This document shows, piece after piece, positions 1-26,147 of a stretch of 33,883 nt of DNA. The notes beneath the pieces were generated by a model that worked only from the letters and a program-made list of their open reading frames with translations, did not search any database and was not told the origin of the DNA. Every line of letters starts with the position of its first letter. The stretch's first letter is position 1. The stretch is taken from contig SLOL01000036.1 of NCBI GenBank assembly GCA_007132495.1, positions 1 through 33,883 of the forward strand, given 5' to 3'. A program made the translations under genes and the position numbers. Origin of the DNA: Balneolales bacterium (GTDB taxonomy: Bacteria > Bacteroidota > Rhodothermia > Balneolales > Natronogracilivirgulaceae).

Positions 1-56
1 CTTCTGTATTCTGACTTCTGTATTCTGACTTCTGTATTCTGTACTCTGTCTACTGA
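1..56. repeat. 14-bp tandem repeat at the window edge
   Basis: Two exact and one near-exact copy of the 14-mer CTTCTGTATTCTGA lie at 1-42, followed by a decayed fourth copy to 56. The array continues off the left edge, so its full size is unknown. It abuts and slightly overlaps the purC stop codon at 50-52. I see no hairpin or coding potential; it looks like an intergenic minisatellite. Confidence 0.75.
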
Positions 57-1006
57 TCCAGCAACTCCTCCAGATACCGGTTGAAGCCGGTGGTGGAAAC
101 CGGTTCAAAGGTCTCCCCGGTCAGTCTTTCGTAGAGCTCACGGTAGCGTCGATAGATCGAAATGCGCAGCTCATCGGGCAGGACCGGCAGTTTTTGATCC
201 AATGTGCCGTGATAGCCGTTGTCGATAAGCCACTCCCGGAGAAATTCCTTGGAAAGTTGCTTTTGAGGTGCGTTCTCTTCCAGAAGGCGCTGGTAGGTAT
301 CGGCATAGAAATAGCGAGAAGAGTCGGCAGTGTGCACTTCATCGATCAATACCAGTTCACCCTGCCAAAGACCGAACTCATATTTGGTATCCACCAGAAG
401 CAGCCCTTTCTTCCGGGCGGTCTCCGTTCCTTTCCGGAACAGGTTGAGGGCGGTCTCCCGGATCTCCTCCCACCGTTCAGCGGTGACCAGCCCCCGGTCG
501 ATGATCTTCTCTTCGGAGATGTCCTCGTCGTGACCCTGGTGAGCTTTGGTGGAAGGGGTGATGATTGGCTGTTCAAAGGCTTCGTTCTGGCGGAGTCCGT
601 CCGGCAGTTTTTGACCGCACAGCTCCCGGCCTCCATCCTGGTACACCCGCCAGGCGTGGCCGGACAAGTAGCCCCGGACCACAACCTCTACGGGAAGTGG
701 TTTGCATTTTCGGGCAATGGTGATATTGGGATGGGGAACATCCAGCACATGGTGCCGGCATACCGATGCGATCTGCCGGAAGCCGTACCAGGCAAGCTGG
801 TTGAGAAGCTGCCCCTTGTAGGGAATCGGTTCGGCAAAGATATGGTCAAAAGCCGATATCCGATCTGTGGCGATAATGGCCATGCGATCGCCGGGAAGCA
901 GGTAAATATCCCGGACTTTTCCCTGATAATCGGGGGGACGTCCGGAAACGGTGGTTTCCCGGATACATTGACCGAGTAGTGCTGAAGTATCTGTTGAGTC
1001 TTTCAA
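50..1006 (-). CDS. purC: Phosphoribosylaminoimidazole-succinocarboxamide (SAICAR) synthase
   Basis: This cytoplasmic enzyme joins CAIR and aspartate with ATP to make SAICAR in de novo purine synthesis. At 318 residues it is the longer, ADE1-like form rather than the roughly 240-residue enterobacterial form. Family signatures are clear: IATDRISAFDHIF near residue 45, VVRGYLSG near 110, ITPSTKAHQGHDE near 150, LLVDTKYEFG near 202 and LIDEVHTADSSRYF near 220. The start is a TTG (1004-1006): no ATG or GTG occurs between the upstream in-frame stop (1046-1048) and the conserved region, and this start gives the expected N-terminus. No strong Shine-Dalgarno is visible. The stop sits in the tandem repeat at the window edge. 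The next gene upstream, the lacI-type regulator, is on the same strand, but the gap holds a degenerate repeat, so co-transcription is uncertain. Confidence 0.96.
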   Translation of the reverse strand: MKDSTDTSALLGQCIRETTVSGRPPDYQGKVRDIYLLPGDRMAIIATDRISAFDHIFAEPIPYKGQLLNQLAWYGFRQIASVCRHHVLDVPHPNITIARKCKPLPVEVVVRGYLSGHAWRVYQDGGRELCGQKLPDGLRQNEAFEQPIITPSTKAHQGHDEDISEEKIIDRGLVTAERWEEIRETALNLFRKGTETARKKGLLLVDTKYEFGLWQGELVLIDEVHTADSSRYFYADTYQRLLEENAPQKQLSKEFLREWLIDNGYHGTLDQKLPVLPDELRISIYRRYRELYERLTGETFEPVSTTGFNRYLEELLDQ

Positions 1007-1011
1007 ACGGA

Positions 1012-1130
1012 TTCGGTTACTGGCGTTTGGGTAATCATATGACGATCAGAAACTGGAAGTGATCGGCCGGGCAAAGGGCAAGGCCGTGCATGTTCGGTTA
1101 CCGGCGTTTGGTTGAATATCTGACGATCAG
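1012..1130. repeat. 38-bp direct repeat: duplicated 3' end of the LacI-family gene
   Basis: Copies at 1012-1049 and 1093-1130 start 81 bp apart and match at about 32 of 38 positions. Both begin TTCGGTTAC and end GACGATCAG. The second copy contains the final codons and stop of the LacI-family gene. Read on the minus strand, the first copy resembles that tail (Leu-Ile-Val then a stop, then Pro-Lys-Arg and a stop) but is broken by an in-frame TGA. It looks like a small decayed duplication of a gene end lying between two genes. Confidence 0.65.
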
Positions 1131-2108
1131 TTCAGGGTTAATGATTTTTTGCATCAACGACGTCTCCTTGCTCTTGATCAATTCCGTCATACGGTTGATG
1201 GCCATGATTCCGGCATCGTACATTTGCTGGTCGATGGTGGATAGTCCCAGAAAGCGGGCGGTTTTGATATTATCGTACCCCATCACGGCTACATCGCCGG
1301 GGATATCAAGCTTCATTTCCCGGACGGCGTGCATTACGCCGATGGCCTGGGCGTCATTGGTGCAGAAAATGGCCTCGGGAAGTCCGCCGCGCTCTTTCAT
1401 GATCTGTACGGCTTCATAACCCGCCTCTTCACTGTACCCGGAGTGTTTCCGGGTAATGCCCGTTACAAAATAATCTTCATCCATGGGCAGGTCGTTTTTT
1501 TTCAACACTTCGCGAAATCCTCTTTCGCGGGAGTCGGCAACCGGTGATTTGCTATGGGAGCGTACCATGCCGATTTTTTTGTACCCCTCGTTGATCAGAT
1601 GTTCACCGGCCATGTAACCGCCCCGGTAATTGTCCCAGTAGATATAGTTGAAATCCTTGTGTTCAGAACCGACAAGCACGACCGGAATTCCTGCGTTTTT
1701 CAAACGGGTTTCAATTTCCTGATCGATACTTATGGAGAAAATGAGCAGTGCATCGGGTATACCCCGGTCCAGAAACGTTTTAAATGATTCTTCGGAGTTC
1801 TCCGAGCCGGTATTATAGATAATGATGTCAAGATCGGAACTCTTGAGTTGATCCTTGACTCCCTTCAGCACTTCATTGAAAAAGGGGGTGGTGAATGTTG
1901 GAAGTGCTACCGCAACGATCTGCGCCTCGCTGCGTGCCAGTTTCCTGGCATTGACCTGTGGGCGAAAATCCAGCTCTTTTATCGCATTCTGTACCCGCTC
2001 TTTGGTCGCTTTGGAAACATAGGGGGAACCGTTCAACACTCTGGAAACCGTGGAAATTGCAACGTTGGCTGTTCGTGCTACATCGTAAATGGTTTGTTTT
2101 TTTGCCAT
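1098..2108 (-). CDS. LacI-family transcriptional regulator
   Basis: The 336-residue protein has the full LacI layout. An N-terminal helix-turn-helix with hinge spans residues 5-58, with the signature TIYDVARTANVAISTVSRVL and a hinge around RPQVNARKLA. A sugar-binding-type periplasmic fold spans about 62-330, including the AIFCTNDAQAIGVMHAV and DVAVMGYDN stretches typical of LacI/GalR effector domains. Such proteins repress or activate carbohydrate genes in response to a sugar or derivative. No sugar transporter or catabolic gene is adjacent, so its target is unknown; the nearest divergent gene is the phytoene/squalene synthase. The ATG start gives a standard N-terminus. An AT-rich inverted repeat in the divergent region is a possible but weak operator. 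Confidence 0.93.
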   Translation of the reverse strand: MAKKQTIYDVARTANVAISTVSRVLNGSPYVSKATKERVQNAIKELDFRPQVNARKLARSEAQIVAVALPTFTTPFFNEVLKGVKDQLKSSDLDIIIYNTGSENSEESFKTFLDRGIPDALLIFSISIDQEIETRLKNAGIPVVLVGSEHKDFNYIYWDNYRGGYMAGEHLINEGYKKIGMVRSHSKSPVADSRERGFREVLKKNDLPMDEDYFVTGITRKHSGYSEEAGYEAVQIMKERGGLPEAIFCTNDAQAIGVMHAVREMKLDIPGDVAVMGYDNIKTARFLGLSTIDQQMYDAGIMAINRMTELIKSKETSLMQKIINPELIVRYSTKRR

Positions 2109-2436: not shown

Positions 2437-3441
2437 ATGGACAGCAAAATACCATTGTTTTCGGTTCGCGCACTCCGGCCTGTCTATCACCGCACATCTC
2501 TTCACAACGGTGTTATTGATGAGGTCGAAGATCCGGAATTACGCGCGGCATATGCATACTGCCGGAAGATTATTCATACTTCTGCAAAAACGTTTTACCT
2601 CGCTGCCAGGTTCCTGCCTTATGAAAAACAGCGAAGTATCTTTGCAATTTATGCACTTTGCCGATACCTGGACAATTTGGTGGATGAGCAGGAAGAAGAG
2701 GCTCCGGAGAGCGGAAACCGTGTCGAACAAATAGCGGAGCTGCTCTCGGAATGGGAGCATAATGTACAGAGAACCTATAAAGGGGAGCAACTGACCCATC
2801 CTGTGCTGTACGCCTTTTCCGATGTACTGAAACGTTACCAAATCCCTGTCGATCTTCCTCTTCAACTCATTGAAGGGATGAATATGGATCTGGTCAGGAA
2901 TCGTTATGAGACATTCGACGAGCTGTACGACTACGCCTATAAAGTGGCCTCGGTAGTCGGATTGATGGTCTGTGAAGTATTCGGTTATGAGGATGATACG
3001 GCGCGGAAGCATGCCGTTGATCTTGGTATCGCCATGCAGCTTACCAATATACTGCGGGATGTGGGAGAAGATCTTCAGCGGGATCGCATTTACCTTCCGG
3101 CTGAGGAATTGGAAACCTACAATATTACCGAATCGGACTTGAAAAACCAGCGTGTAAGCCGGGAATTTGTATCTTTGATGAAGTTCCAGATCGAACGGGC
3201 CCGAGCCTATTACCGAAGCTCCGATAACGGCATTGCCATGCTGAACGGAGACAGCCGCATGCCGGTTTACCTTGCCCGGTATAATTATGCCCGAATTCTG
3301 GATCGCATTGAAGAAACGCAGTATCAGGTCTTTACGTACCGTGCACACCTTACCTTCACTCAGAAACTAAGCATTCTTCCGAAAGCCTGGTGGCAGACCA
3401 GGTTCAGCCGCCCGCGAAAAAGTTTTAAAAATTCAGTGTGA
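2437..3441 (+). CDS. crtB: Phytoene/squalene synthase family protein
   Basis: This enzyme condenses two prenyl diphosphates head to head, most likely two geranylgeranyl diphosphates to phytoene, the first step of carotenoid synthesis. Both Mg-binding DxxxD motifs are present: D79-N-L-V-D83 after the conserved ALCRYLD stretch, and D208-V-G-E-D212 in the hallmark NILRDVGEDLQRDRIYLP. The 334-residue length is normal. An N-terminal extension of about 30 residues precedes the conserved domain; the ATG at 2437 is the only plausible start there. No desaturase or cyclase gene is adjacent, so the carotenoid route must be completed elsewhere. Squalene synthase cannot be fully excluded from sequence alone, but the spacing and motif wording favour phytoene synthase. 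Confidence 0.88.
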   Translation: MDSKIPLFSVRALRPVYHRTSLHNGVIDEVEDPELRAAYAYCRKIIHTSAKTFYLAARFLPYEKQRSIFAIYALCRYLDNLVDEQEEEAPESGNRVEQIAELLSEWEHNVQRTYKGEQLTHPVLYAFSDVLKRYQIPVDLPLQLIEGMNMDLVRNRYETFDELYDYAYKVASVVGLMVCEVFGYEDDTARKHAVDLGIAMQLTNILRDVGEDLQRDRIYLPAEELETYNITESDLKNQRVSREFVSLMKFQIERARAYYRSSDNGIAMLNGDSRMPVYLARYNYARILDRIEETQYQVFTYRAHLTFTQKLSILPKAWWQTRFSRPRKSFKNSV

Positions 3442-3518: not shown

Positions 3519-4232
3519 ATGAACAGCAAGAAACATACCTGGCAGAGTCCCAGTTTGGGAAGAAAAGCATCGGTTATCGTATATGGTACCGAGGGAACCC
3601 CGATGTTGGCATTTCCCGGAGATTCAGCCGCCATCACCGACTGGAAAGAGCAGGGGCTGTTGGAGGCCCTCTCTTATCAGATTGAAAACGGACACAACCG
3701 GATTATATGTGTCGAGTCGATCGATCGGGAGAGTTTTTTTAATACCGAGGTGGAACCGCGCACCCGAATAAACCGATATCGCCAGTATGAAGGGTATATC
3801 ATAGATGAAGTGCTTCCTTTTGTCCGGAAACTGACCGGGGATCTGTTTATAATGGCCGCCGGGGTGCATATGGGCGGCTACCACGCGCTCAATCTGCTGT
3901 TGAAATATCCCGGAAAGATCCAGAAGGTGATATCCATCGGGGGACGTTTTCAGCTCCGGCACTTCATGGGGGATTATTTTGATGACAATGTCTATTTCAA
4001 CAACCCATTGGAGTACCTTCCCAACCTGGATGACGAATCCATCCTTGAAGAAATCCGCAATACCGATATCCGGCTGGTTGTAACCCCGGACGATCCCTAC
4101 ATCGAACTGAACTATATGATGTCTGATATTCTCCGGTCCAAGTCCATCGATCATATATTTGATTACTGGATTGAAACGGGAACCAATCCCCGGGAAATCT
4201 GGGGCGATATTTTACAACGGCATGTACCTTGA
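3519..4232 (+). CDS. Esterase-like alpha/beta-hydrolase lacking catalytic residues
   Basis: The 237-residue protein follows the Bacteroidota esterase-like family that starts with a W-x-SPSLGR strand and carries a nucleophile elbow around residue 115, then a YFDDNVYFNNPLEYLPNL stretch. In active relatives the elbow reads G-x-S-x-G-G. Here it is G115-V-H117-M-G-G, so the nucleophile Ser is His (CAT at 3867-3869). Near the C-terminus, where relatives have an HDWxxW catalytic His, this protein reads TNPREIW, so that His is apparently Asn. The fold is otherwise intact and the frame is open. It is probably a non-catalytic homologue or an enzyme with altered chemistry. No signal peptide is seen. It lies 77 bp downstream of the phytoene synthase and may share its transcript. 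Confidence 0.72.
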   Translation: MNSKKHTWQSPSLGRKASVIVYGTEGTPMLAFPGDSAAITDWKEQGLLEALSYQIENGHNRIICVESIDRESFFNTEVEPRTRINRYRQYEGYIIDEVLPFVRKLTGDLFIMAAGVHMGGYHALNLLLKYPGKIQKVISIGGRFQLRHFMGDYFDDNVYFNNPLEYLPNLDDESILEEIRNTDIRLVVTPDDPYIELNYMMSDILRSKSIDHIFDYWIETGTNPREIWGDILQRHVP

Positions 4233-4239
4233 TCACATA

Positions 4240-4432
4240 TTTACACCTGAGTCCATGCATCTTTCCCGGCCCAGCACGCTTTCACCTGAATCCATGCATC
4301 TTCTCTGAATCCGCACGCCTTTATCTGAGTCCATGCATCTTCTCTGCCCCCACACACCTTTTCCTGAGCCTATGTATCTTTCCCGTCACAACGCGCGCGC
4401 TTTTACCTGAACCTGTGTATCTTTCCTGACCG
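4240..4432. repeat. 39-42 bp imperfect tandem repeat, about 4.8 copies
   Basis: Units begin at 4240, 4280, 4320, 4359 and 4401. Each has a TTT-rich start, then a core resembling CCTGAGTCCATGCATCTT, then a variable C-rich tail. The first three copies are closest; copies four and five have drifted (ATGTAT and GTGTAT instead of ATGCAT). The array fills nearly all of the gap between the esterase-like gene and murQ. The self-complementary ATGCAT in each of the first three copies is the only dyad I see. It is a minisatellite of unknown role. Confidence 0.8.
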
Positions 4433-4471: not shown

Positions 4472-5407
4472 TTGACAGATAAAAAATCGCTATACGTTCA
4501 GCTCGGAAAACTGGATACCGAGCAGAGAAATCCGGATACCCTGCATATCGACCTGGCCGATCCGTCGGAAATCGTCCGTCTGATGAATGAAGAGGACCGC
4601 AAAGTGGCCGAATGTGTGAATAACCGAAGCACACAAATAGCACAAGCGATTGATTACGCGCACCGGGCGCTGGCCGGCGGTGGACGGCTTATATACACCG
4701 GTGCCGGAACAAGCGGCAGGCTCGGTGTGCTGGATGCGGCAGAGTGTCCTCCCACTTTCGGGACCCGGCCGGACCAGGTGGTTGGGTTGATTGCCGGCGG
4801 CCGGGAGGCCATGTTTGTGGCCCAGGAGGGCTCTGAGGATAATCCGGAGAACGGAGAAAAAGATATTGCAGACCTCGGCGTTACCCACAAGGATGTCGTT
4901 TGCGGACTGGCTGCCAGCGGTCGTACGCCATATGTTCTGGGAACCCTTCAGGAAGCCCAAAAACGTGGCGCGGGAACCGTCATGGTTTGTTGTGTTGCCG
5001 CTGAACATGTAAAGCTGGACCCTCAGGCCGATGTTATGATCGACATCCCGGTCGGACCGGAAGTCATCATGGGCAGTACGCGGCTGAAGAGTGCAACAGC
5101 ACAAAAAATGGTTTGTAATATGATTTCAACAGGCGCAATGGTCAGACTCGGAAAAGTATACGAAAATGTGATGGTGGATCTGATGCTGACCAACCAAAAA
5201 CTGGTGGAGCGTTCCCGCCGTATCATCTGCATGTTTACAGACCTTGATTATGAACAGGCTTCTGATCTGCTTCAGCAAGCCGGCGGAAAAGTGAAGGTGG
5301 CACTGTTGATGGGATTGGCTAATTTAAGTGCCGGGGAGGCCGAACGACAGCTTGACGCACATGACGGCTTCATTCGAGCTGCTTTACAATCTCTCGAACA
5401 GGGCTGA
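4472..5407 (+). CDS. murQ: N-acetylmuramic acid 6-phosphate etherase
   Basis: MurQ removes the lactyl ether from MurNAc-6-phosphate to give GlcNAc-6-phosphate and D-lactate, feeding peptidoglycan sugar back into metabolism in the cytoplasm. The SIS domain is clear: the phosphosugar-binding stretch YTGAGTSGRLGVLDAAECPP (residues 76-94) contains conserved Glu91, and an acidic run around E119-E122 matches the second catalytic Glu region. GLAASGRTPYV and IMGSTRLKSATAQKM follow. Length (311) is normal. The start is a TTG at 4472; the only later ATG would delete the conserved N-terminal helix. The tandem repeat array lies directly upstream, so it falls in the probable leader. The following TonB-domain gene begins within about 65 bp and is probably co-transcribed. 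Confidence 0.95.
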   Translation: MTDKKSLYVQLGKLDTEQRNPDTLHIDLADPSEIVRLMNEEDRKVAECVNNRSTQIAQAIDYAHRALAGGGRLIYTGAGTSGRLGVLDAAECPPTFGTRPDQVVGLIAGGREAMFVAQEGSEDNPENGEKDIADLGVTHKDVVCGLAASGRTPYVLGTLQEAQKRGAGTVMVCCVAAEHVKLDPQADVMIDIPVGPEVIMGSTRLKSATAQKMVCNMISTGAMVRLGKVYENVMVDLMLTNQKLVERSRRIICMFTDLDYEQASDLLQQAGGKVKVALLMGLANLSAGEAERQLDAHDGFIRAALQSLEQG

Positions 5408-5471
5408 TTCCTCAGTGTACACATTCCAGCCGGCCACCGCAGGTTGCCGGAAGTTAACATTCAGCAATAGC

Positions 5472-6146
5472 GTGAGGTTTTTTCATTCCATTTACCAGCG
5501 TAACAGAGCCTATTTTTTCCGGTTTCAGATGGCTCTGGTATGTTCTCTGCTTCTGTTCATCCTGCTGTTTCGTTATTGGCCGGTATATATTGACCAGGAT
5601 GATTATCTGAATCAACGGTTTGATGAGGAAGAGGCGATCGGTCCCGAATTCATTGTAACCTCCCCCGAATTCAGCGTCGAGAGGATTGCTCCGCCGGTTC
5701 CCCGCCCTGACATCACGGTTCCCGATGAGGAGGTTGTCGATATGGAGTATGACCTGGATGTTGGCGAAATGGGTGAAGGGGAGGGATTGGCTCCGTTTGG
5801 CGCAGAGGAAGGAGAGCCGGAGATTGTGGAACAACCCGACCGTCGACCCAGTGTCCGGCGGATCGTCGAGCCGGTTATGCCTTCGCAAGCCCGCCGAGAC
5901 GGAGTACGGGTGGAAATAGTTGTACTGTTTGTAGTGTCTGATGAAGGTGAGGTGATTGAAGCGTCTATTGATGAGATGCGTATGTACAACGAGCAAACCG
6001 GCCGGTTCGAAGTGGTCAGCGAAACCGGATACGGTTTCCGGGAGGTTACACTGCGTGCCGCAAGTCAGTGGTTGTTTCATGCAGCCGAATATGACGGAGA
6101 CCGGGTGCGGGCCCGTGCACGCCACCGCTTCACCTTTGGAAATTGA
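5472..6146 (+). CDS. TonB C-terminal domain protein (energy-transducer-like)
   Basis: A short basic N-terminus is followed by one membrane segment (about residues 19-40, MALVCSLLLFILLF), an acidic linker, and a C-terminal domain (about 130-224) matching the TonB fold: a PVMPSQARRDG start, a VEIVVLFVVSDEGEV strand pair, and an LRAASQWLFHAAEYDG helix-strand. TonB proteins pass proton-motive energy from the inner membrane to outer-membrane receptors. The linker is unusual: it is strongly acidic and poor in Lys-Pro repeats. I chose the GTG at 5472, which gives 224 residues and a short cytoplasmic tail. An ATG at 5328 in the same frame would overlap murQ by 80 bp, so the start is uncertain. No ExbB/ExbD is adjacent. 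Confidence 0.78.
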   Translation: MRFFHSIYQRNRAYFFRFQMALVCSLLLFILLFRYWPVYIDQDDYLNQRFDEEEAIGPEFIVTSPEFSVERIAPPVPRPDITVPDEEVVDMEYDLDVGEMGEGEGLAPFGAEEGEPEIVEQPDRRPSVRRIVEPVMPSQARRDGVRVEIVVLFVVSDEGEVIEASIDEMRMYNEQTGRFEVVSETGYGFREVTLRAASQWLFHAAEYDGDRVRARARHRFTFGN

Positions 6147-24794: not shown

Positions 24795-26147
24795 TTAAGT
24801 TAAATCGGGGTTGAATATGAATTGATTTTCCAGGTATTTCGTATCAAAATGTCCGCTGATAAAATTGGGGTCATCCATCAGTTGCAGCTGATAGGGAATA
24901 TTGGTTTTGATTCCTTCAATTACAAACTCATTGAGTGCGCGCTTCATCCGTGCGATGGCCTGTTTCCGGTCAGGTGCGCTTACGATAAGTTTGGCGATCA
25001 TGGAGTCATAGAAAGGCGGTACCGAATATCCGGAATAGGCGTGGGTATCCACCCGGACACTGTGTCCCCCCGGCAGGTGAAAAGCCTGTATCTTGCCGGC
25101 TGACGGTCGGAAATTGAAAGCCGGATCTTCGGCATTGATCCTGCATTCTATGGAGTGACCGCGCATCTTGAGCTTCTTTTTCTCCAGGGGAAGCCCGGCG
25201 GCCACTTCGATCTGAAGCTGGATCAGGTCTTCGTTGGTCACCTCTTCGGTAACGGGATGTTCTACCTGGATCCGGGTGTTCATCTCCATGAAGTAGAAAT
25301 TATGATCTTTATCCAGCAGAAATTCGATGGTTCCGGCCCCTTCATAATGGATGGTTTCGGCGGCGGCAATGGCGGCCTGACCCATTTTTTCGCGAAGTTC
25401 GGGGGTCATAACCGGACAGGGTGCCTCTTCCAGCATCTTCTGATGCCGCCGCTGCATGGAGCAGTCCCTTTCGCCGAGGTGGATCACCTGGCCGTGCCGG
25501 TCGCCGACAATCTGTATTTCGACATGGCGCGGCTCGACGATGAATTTCTCCATGTAGATTTCGGGGCTGCCGAAACAGGCTTCCGCTTCGTTGCGTGCTG
25601 CAGTGAGCTGTCGCTCGATTTCTGTCTCCTCATTACAGATACGCATGCCGCGTCCCCCGCCTCCGGCTGAAGCTTTCAAAATGACCGGATAACCGATTTC
25701 AGAGGCGACCTTTCCGGCCTGTTCGGCTGAACGGATGACGCCGGTACTGCCCGGTATCGTGGGCACACCGTATTTCTGCATGTTTTCGCGTGCCATGGAC
25801 TTGTTGCCCATGGTGTCGATCATTCTGGAAGAGGGACCGATAAACTTGATATTGTGTTCTTCACAAATTCTGGAGAACTCGGCATTTTCGGCCAGGAAGC
25901 CATAGCCGGGGTGGATGGCTTTGGCATCGGTGATCTCCGCTGCGGCGATAATCCGTGGAATCTTCAGGTAGCTTTCCCGGGCCGCAGGCGGGCCGATGCA
26001 GACCGCTTCGTCGGCAAACTTGACATGAAGGCTCTTTTCATCGGCTGTAGAATAAACCGCCACCGTTTTGATTCCCATTTCCCGGCAAGTGCGGATAATT
26101 CTCAGTGCAATTTCGCCGCGGTTGGCGATAAGTATTTTATCAAACAT
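24795..26147 (-). CDS. accC: Acetyl-CoA carboxylase, biotin carboxylase subunit
   Basis: AccC carboxylates the biotin on AccB with bicarbonate and ATP, the first half of malonyl-CoA synthesis. The N-terminal domain ([20 protein letters not shown]), the Gly-rich ATP-grasp loop ([11 protein letters not shown] near 165), the biotin/bicarbonate site ([14 protein letters not shown] near 290) and the C-terminal FIEGIKTN-like region ([13 protein letters not shown]) are all present. The 450-residue length is standard. It follows accB by 8 bp on the same strand, so the two subunits are made together. The carboxyltransferase subunits are not in the window. Confidence 0.97.

Follow-up and report, generated by a model that had tools for sequence, protein, structure and literature searches.

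A probable pseudoenzyme of the putative esterase family PF00756 in a conserved operon of the Balneolales

The locus and its genes

The window, i.e. the whole stretch of 33,883 nucleotides of a Balneolales genome which was analysed, contains an open reading frame for a protein of the Pfam family PF00756 (E 1.1e-5; 25.8 bits, above the gathering score of 22). This family, named "Putative esterase", comprises feruloyl/CE1-type esterases such as 5vol as well as S-formylglutathione hydrolases. A search of the window protein against NCBIfam gave no model above its cut-off, and PHROGs contained no match to it. The gene is present as a single copy in the window's genome, the next match being short with an E-value of 0.08. 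Residues 113–123 of the translation read A-A-G-V-H-M-G-G-Y-H-A. An active serine esterase has a Ser in the GxSxG motif and a His in the HDW motif; these positions are occupied by His117 and Asn223. The catalytic acid is retained as Asp192, placed by alignment to 5vol. Homologues of the window protein's lineage which are without the nucleophile Ser are referred to as dead below.

Table 1 Features of the window. Counts refer to the 73 aligned sequences of the dead clade and to the 43 Ser-bearing sequences
Feature	Position	Strand	Remarks
PurC (SAICAR synthetase), conserved neighbour	50..1006	-	in 55/73 dead stretches
LacI-family regulator, divergent from the operon	1098..2108	-	in 42/73 dead stretches; also beside the synthase in loci without the esterase
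Squalene/phytoene-synthase-like gene (PF00494)	2437..3441	+	first gene of the operon; sole PF00494 match in the genome
Dead esterase homologue (PF00756)	3519..4232	+	237 aa plus stop; Ser117→His, His223→Asn, Asp192 kept
His117 codon (CAT), nucleophile position	3867..3869	+	column with Ser in 43 rows, 0/73 in the dead clade
Asp192, catalytic-acid position, retained	4092..4094	+	Asp in 70/73 dead rows; aligns with GDDDF of 5vol
Asn223, catalytic-His position (HDW motif)	4185..4187	+	His in 43/43 Ser rows, 5/73 dead rows
Tandem repeat of 39 bp	4245-4380		3.5 copies, between the dead esterase and MurQ
MurQ, N-acetylmuramic acid 6-phosphate etherase	4472..5407	+	TIGR00274, 372.7 bits (cut-off 302); in 63/73 dead stretches
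TonB-C-like protein, operon member	5328..6146	+	PF03544, E 1.7e-6; in 62/73 dead stretches; start chosen mechanically, overlaps the end of murQ
General biotin carboxylase	24813-26093		about 50% identical to the second copy in the operon (window's family)

The conserved order of the operon is phytoene-synthase-like gene, dead esterase, second biotin carboxylase, MurQ and TonB-like protein. The window's operon lacks the carboxylase, and its dead esterase is followed by MurQ. The 39-bp tandem repeat lies in the gap where relatives have the second biotin carboxylase; its core pattern (up to 3 mismatches) occurs at three sites here and, with 3 mismatches, at one site elsewhere in the genome. Among the products of the operon and its surroundings MurQ, PurC and one acyltransferase representative pass their NCBIfam cut-offs. 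The synthase stays below the cut-offs of both the CrtB and the HpnD model. As for the AccC-like carboxylase, the cut-off of TIGR00514 is reached by one member and missed by another one given without its first residues.

Homologues within and outside the order

In the order Balneolales, 128 genomes were searched for homologues with a match threshold of E 1e-5 or better. Matches were found in 78 genomes at 90 loci, and all of these loci including the window were read. The Ser at the nucleophile column is kept at 16 loci and lost at 74, i.e. in 73 sequences by alignment and in L185. The latter (L185/L204, genome G099) is a dead copy with a low-complexity insertion after about residue 70; its frame is still open and its sequence contains GVGEG, so that it is without Ser as well. 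Because of the insertion L185 was omitted from the tree and from all counts based on 73 rows. A tally by genome gives 72 with the dead form, 16 with the Ser form and 10 with both.

Outside the order, 29 of the 82 rows of a search of the phylum were fetched, 27 with and two without Ser. Together with the 16 from the order this makes a total of 43 Ser rows. The two Ser-less sequences (L155 and L156) were counted apart from the dead clade. They appear to be independent cases: L155 has GVDLGG and no HDW motif, L156 has GCGFG with HDW kept. Three named relatives of the window protein with 69–73% identity are all from Balneolales MAGs. Furthermore, plasmid records contain 14 distant homologues (about 29–33% identity), and a scan of viral contigs found no further relatives.

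Catalytic positions in the dead clade

When 119 homologues are aligned, residue 117 of the window protein falls into the column with Ser in 43 rows, and Asn223 of TNPREIW into a column which is His in every one of these 43. A sequence-only reading of the locus had described a nucleophile elbow GVHMGG with His117 encoded by CAT, and an Asn at an HDW-type His position; both are borne out by the translation and the alignment. In a quick tree of 118 rows the 73 dead rows make up one side of a branch with an SH-aLRT value of 99. This tree has long branches and was rooted at the midpoint, and the position of the root is not shown by it. The state "no Ser" needs three changes on it, one each for the 73-row group, L155 and L156.

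The losses are conserved across the clade but the replacing residues are not. Ser is missing in 73/73 rows and the catalytic His in 68/73, while exactly His117 occurs in seven and Asn223 in 20; the homologues L068 and L070 share this His with the window protein. The nucleophile site is occupied by Gly (26), Asp (19), Ala (12), His (7), Asn (3), Phe (2), Glu (2), Gln (1) and Arg (1), and the 16-row group to which the window belongs has His, Gly or Asp. At the column of the catalytic His, Asp (29) and Asn (20) prevail beside His (5) and others. In the five rows with His at 223, residue 117 is Gly in four and Asp in one, never Ser. Since nine different residues are found at the nucleophile site, His117 is a local state due to drift, and its use as a replacement nucleophile was rejected.

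A subclade of 15 rows (L089, L095, L097, L098, L100, L101, L103, L104, L109, L147, L148 and L167–L170) shows four fixed residues, Asp117, Arg35, Arg194 and Glu224. All four are absent from the same positions in the order's 16 Ser-bearing relatives, and only one of the 15 rows retains the catalytic His. Such newly fixed charged residues at or near the old site could represent a new chemistry or a ligand site.

The change in the window is not a sequencing error because it is common to relatives. A restriction to one genome, which would have spoken against a maintained protein, is therefore not the case, and both sequencing error and decay in a single genome are ruled out by the relatives and by the dN/dS values among them.

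Selection and conservation

The dN/dS ratios were calculated from Nei-Gojobori counts. For the dead pairs with a dS of 0.05–1.5 the median is 0.074 (range 0.025–0.162; 25 pairs); the window is in none of these pairs, as its dS to every relative falls outside the limits used, and is therefore excluded from the selection test. The close pairs of dead genes are under purifying selection. Four close pairs of Ser-bearing genes (L138/L136, L135/L137, L087/L094 and L123/L124) have ratios of 0.033–0.052. The range in the dead pairs extends above that, and therefore some relaxation is likely; constraint on the dead clade may be a little weaker than on the Ser form. The median of 0.376 for 15 pairs of the Ser group includes very distant pairs and is no yardstick.

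Forty positions are conserved in the Ser rows both of the order (16) and from outside it (27). In the dead clade, conservation is at least 70% for 28 of them and at least 85% for 20, and twelve fall below 60% (117, 189, 24, 223, 224, 45, 160, 228, 152, 125, 41 and 122). Many positions are invariant or nearly so in the 73 dead rows; N60, R83, E97, D183, R185, H212, Q54 and K136, for example, reach 96–100%. A new clade-wide consensus, defined as a residue in at least 85% of the dead clade and in less than 30% of the order's Ser rows, was found at no position. Of the 20 positions with the strongest drop in conservation, seven are no more than six residues away from a member of the triad; 39 of the 237 positions are that close (P 0.029). 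This suggests, though not strongly, a modest enrichment of erosion next to the triad in sequence. The view that the frame is intact and the protein maintained agrees with the intact frames of the relatives, the low dN/dS in close pairs and the conservation of most other positions.

Ser-bearing relatives

The Ser-bearing proteins of the same order and phylum are direct homologues of the dead form, with up to 46% identity. They differ from it by Ser at 117 and His at 223 in 43/43 rows, and also in their context: synthase, carboxylase or MurQ is found near none of the 43 in the stretches read. Instead, an ATP-grasp gene is located directly downstream in 23 of the 43, among them 15 of the 16 within the order; most of the others are not from the order and lie beside different genes. 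ATP-grasp-type neighbours occur in 0/73 dead rows. The ATP-grasp label is based on weak Pfam matches and a profile match to D-Ala-D-Ala ligase (E 3.4e-5). Other genes near the Ser form, judged by one representative each, are a circularly permuted ATP-grasp, a GATase-like protein below the cut-off and GCS2. G003, a genome of the window's family, carries both forms (L082 and L083): the dead copy is followed by carboxylase and MurQ, and the Ser-bearing copy adjoins an ATP-grasp gene.

Ties to the neighbouring genes

The carotenoid-type synthase seen beside the window gene in the first reading is a real neighbour, and it is the next assigned gene upstream in 62/73 dead rows. The next assigned gene downstream is the biotin carboxylase in 66/73 and MurQ in 6/73, the window being among the latter. 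Adjacency in these counts ignores unassigned ORFs below 110 aa, and gene starts were chosen mechanically. The gap between synthase and esterase (median 105 nt in 62 rows) is wider than that between esterase and carboxylase, which measures 5–15 nt in 39/66 rows with a median of 11 and is negative in 14/66 with the mechanical starts.

By tally, the dead esterase is absent from 49 of the 118 synthase-bearing genomes. In 33 of the 39 synthase loci without an adjacent esterase which were examined (five from genomes with a Ser form elsewhere, L206–L210, and one, L205, from genome G015, which has dead copies elsewhere) the synthase is directly followed by the carboxylase, and therefore the esterase can be missing with the operon undisturbed. 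The dead esterase is thus dispensable: many genomes of the order are without it beside an otherwise intact operon. This would also fit a gene of low value under slow loss. On a tree of the synthase, which has long branches, the presence of the esterase needs at least six changes, with gains and losses indistinguishable.

Two genomes of 98–99% completeness, G018 and G030, contain a dead esterase, and a search at E 1e-20 gave no match for the synthase in them. In addition, five genomes (G000, G002, G010, G018 and G019) have the dead esterase without a second biotin carboxylase. A strict partnership with the synthase is weakened by the former and one with the second carboxylase by the latter; the partner is not strictly either of them, because the dead esterase persists without each.

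Structure and known parallels

A profile built from 15 family members finds the esterase 5vol with E 1e-8. The Ser, acid and HDW regions line up, and GDDDF of 5vol is aligned to GxxD of the family in the acid region. AlphaFold2 on four sequences gave a weak model (pLDDT 50.8, pTM 0.48). The best ten Foldseek hits of this weak model are mostly CE1/ferulic acid esterases, 5vol being first, with TM-scores of 0.30–0.47; these matches are corroborative at most. The dead clade belongs to the same sequence family as the PF00756 esterases but lacks the nucleophile Ser throughout and the catalytic His in most rows.

Non-catalytic proteins with a hydrolase fold are a kind already known because two precedents exist. 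MPT51/FbpC1 is a non-catalytic alpha/beta hydrolase according to its description (PMC4232451). As in MPT51, the dead clade has lost catalytic residues with the sequence maintained. MPT51 is a mycobacterial fibronectin-binding protein and differs in host, context and lineage, and the likeness is one of description. Presumably, it falls within the PF00756 group as well. The second precedent is the gibberellin receptor GID1, a ligand-binding protein with a hydrolase fold, for which a derivation from a lipase by loss of the catalytic His has been suggested (PMC3531792). GID1 keeps Ser and Asp and binds its ligand with them, whereas in the dead clade the Ser is gone and the residues of the catalytic loop vary widely, which makes the old pocket a less probable place for a conserved ligand here. 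Searches of the open-licence literature found nothing specific on a pseudo-esterase clade of this kind and no description of the lineage, and among the matches listed there was nothing specific on Balneolales and carotenoids.

Role of the protein

The window protein is probably a maintained pseudoenzyme whose role needs the fold and not the catalytic site. On the evidence of the residues, the dead clade would have no hydrolase activity. In one lineage of the order a PF00756-type esterase would have lost both its nucleophile Ser and its catalytic His. The dead form has its place in the conserved operon downstream of the phytoene-synthase-like gene and upstream of the gene for the second biotin carboxylase. 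Selection would then act on the fold and on most other conserved residues of a non-catalytic, dispensable protein. Such a protein may have a structural or binding role via a surface outside the old pocket. As variation is greatest at the catalytic residues and at several of their neighbours in sequence, self-assembly or an interaction via the surface appears likelier than a conserved ligand in the old pocket. The acid Asp192, still kept in nearly all dead rows, is a counterpoint to the pseudoenzyme.

The same Asp192 is compatible with catalysis of another type, in which His117 or Asp117 together with Asp192 serves as a new nucleophile or general-acid/base set in a rebuilt site. Asp acts as nucleophile in epoxide hydrolases and dehalogenases, and the charged set fixed in the 15-row subclade would suit such a site. 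The nine residues at the nucleophile position include many Gly and Ala, however, the catalytic His is gone from most rows and from nearly all of the Asp subclade itself, no position shows a new clade-wide consensus, and even the window's own family is variable, with His, Gly or Asp in its 16 closest rows; rebuilt catalysis is thus very improbable. There is a small chance that the old site was rebuilt and not just lost: in the Asp subclade the charged set would form a new ligand site or give a new Asp-based activity, and in the window's family the residue (His, Gly or Asp) would turn over, with an envelope or isoprenoid partner bound by a different surface.

Two further readings concern the operon. 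A redundant, decaying gene with little or no function could ride in it, its frame being kept by translational coupling to the next gene. The short gap to the carboxylase, the dispensability and the changes of presence on the synthase tree would be expected of such a passenger. Coupling preserves the frame and not the amino acids, yet the close pairs have low dN/dS ratios, many positions are nearly invariant, and the window and five relatives keep the esterase though the carboxylase no longer adjoins it, all of which makes decay a doubtful explanation. Alternatively, the protein could be an accessory subunit or regulator of the upstream phytoene-synthase-like enzyme. The synthase is the usual upstream neighbour and the only enzyme of its family found in the genome, but the gap to it is the wider one, G018 and G030 keep the dead esterase with no synthase match, and a large share of the synthase-bearing genomes do without it; this role is likewise unlikely. 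A maintained pseudoenzyme, as favoured here, would mean that the label "esterase", given from a family match alone, would mislead for proteins of the dead clade.

With 74 dead and 16 Ser-bearing copies among 128 genomes, ten of them carrying both, the Balneolales would offer an order-wide case of the change from enzyme to pseudoenzyme. The dead copy has its own conserved operon, which makes it a usable system for the question what selection retains after the loss of catalysis. Moreover, the dead esterase is an extra, unexplained member of an operon whose genes relate to isoprenoids, lipids and murein.

Deviating copies

Genome G015 has two diverged dead copies (L084 and L085), and downstream of both are genes for carboxylase, MurQ, acyltransferase and a TonB-like protein; either the operon is duplicated or the assembly is mixed, a contamination of 5% being listed. 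L102 of genome G122 is a dead copy outside the operon, with the usual neighbours absent from the stretch read.
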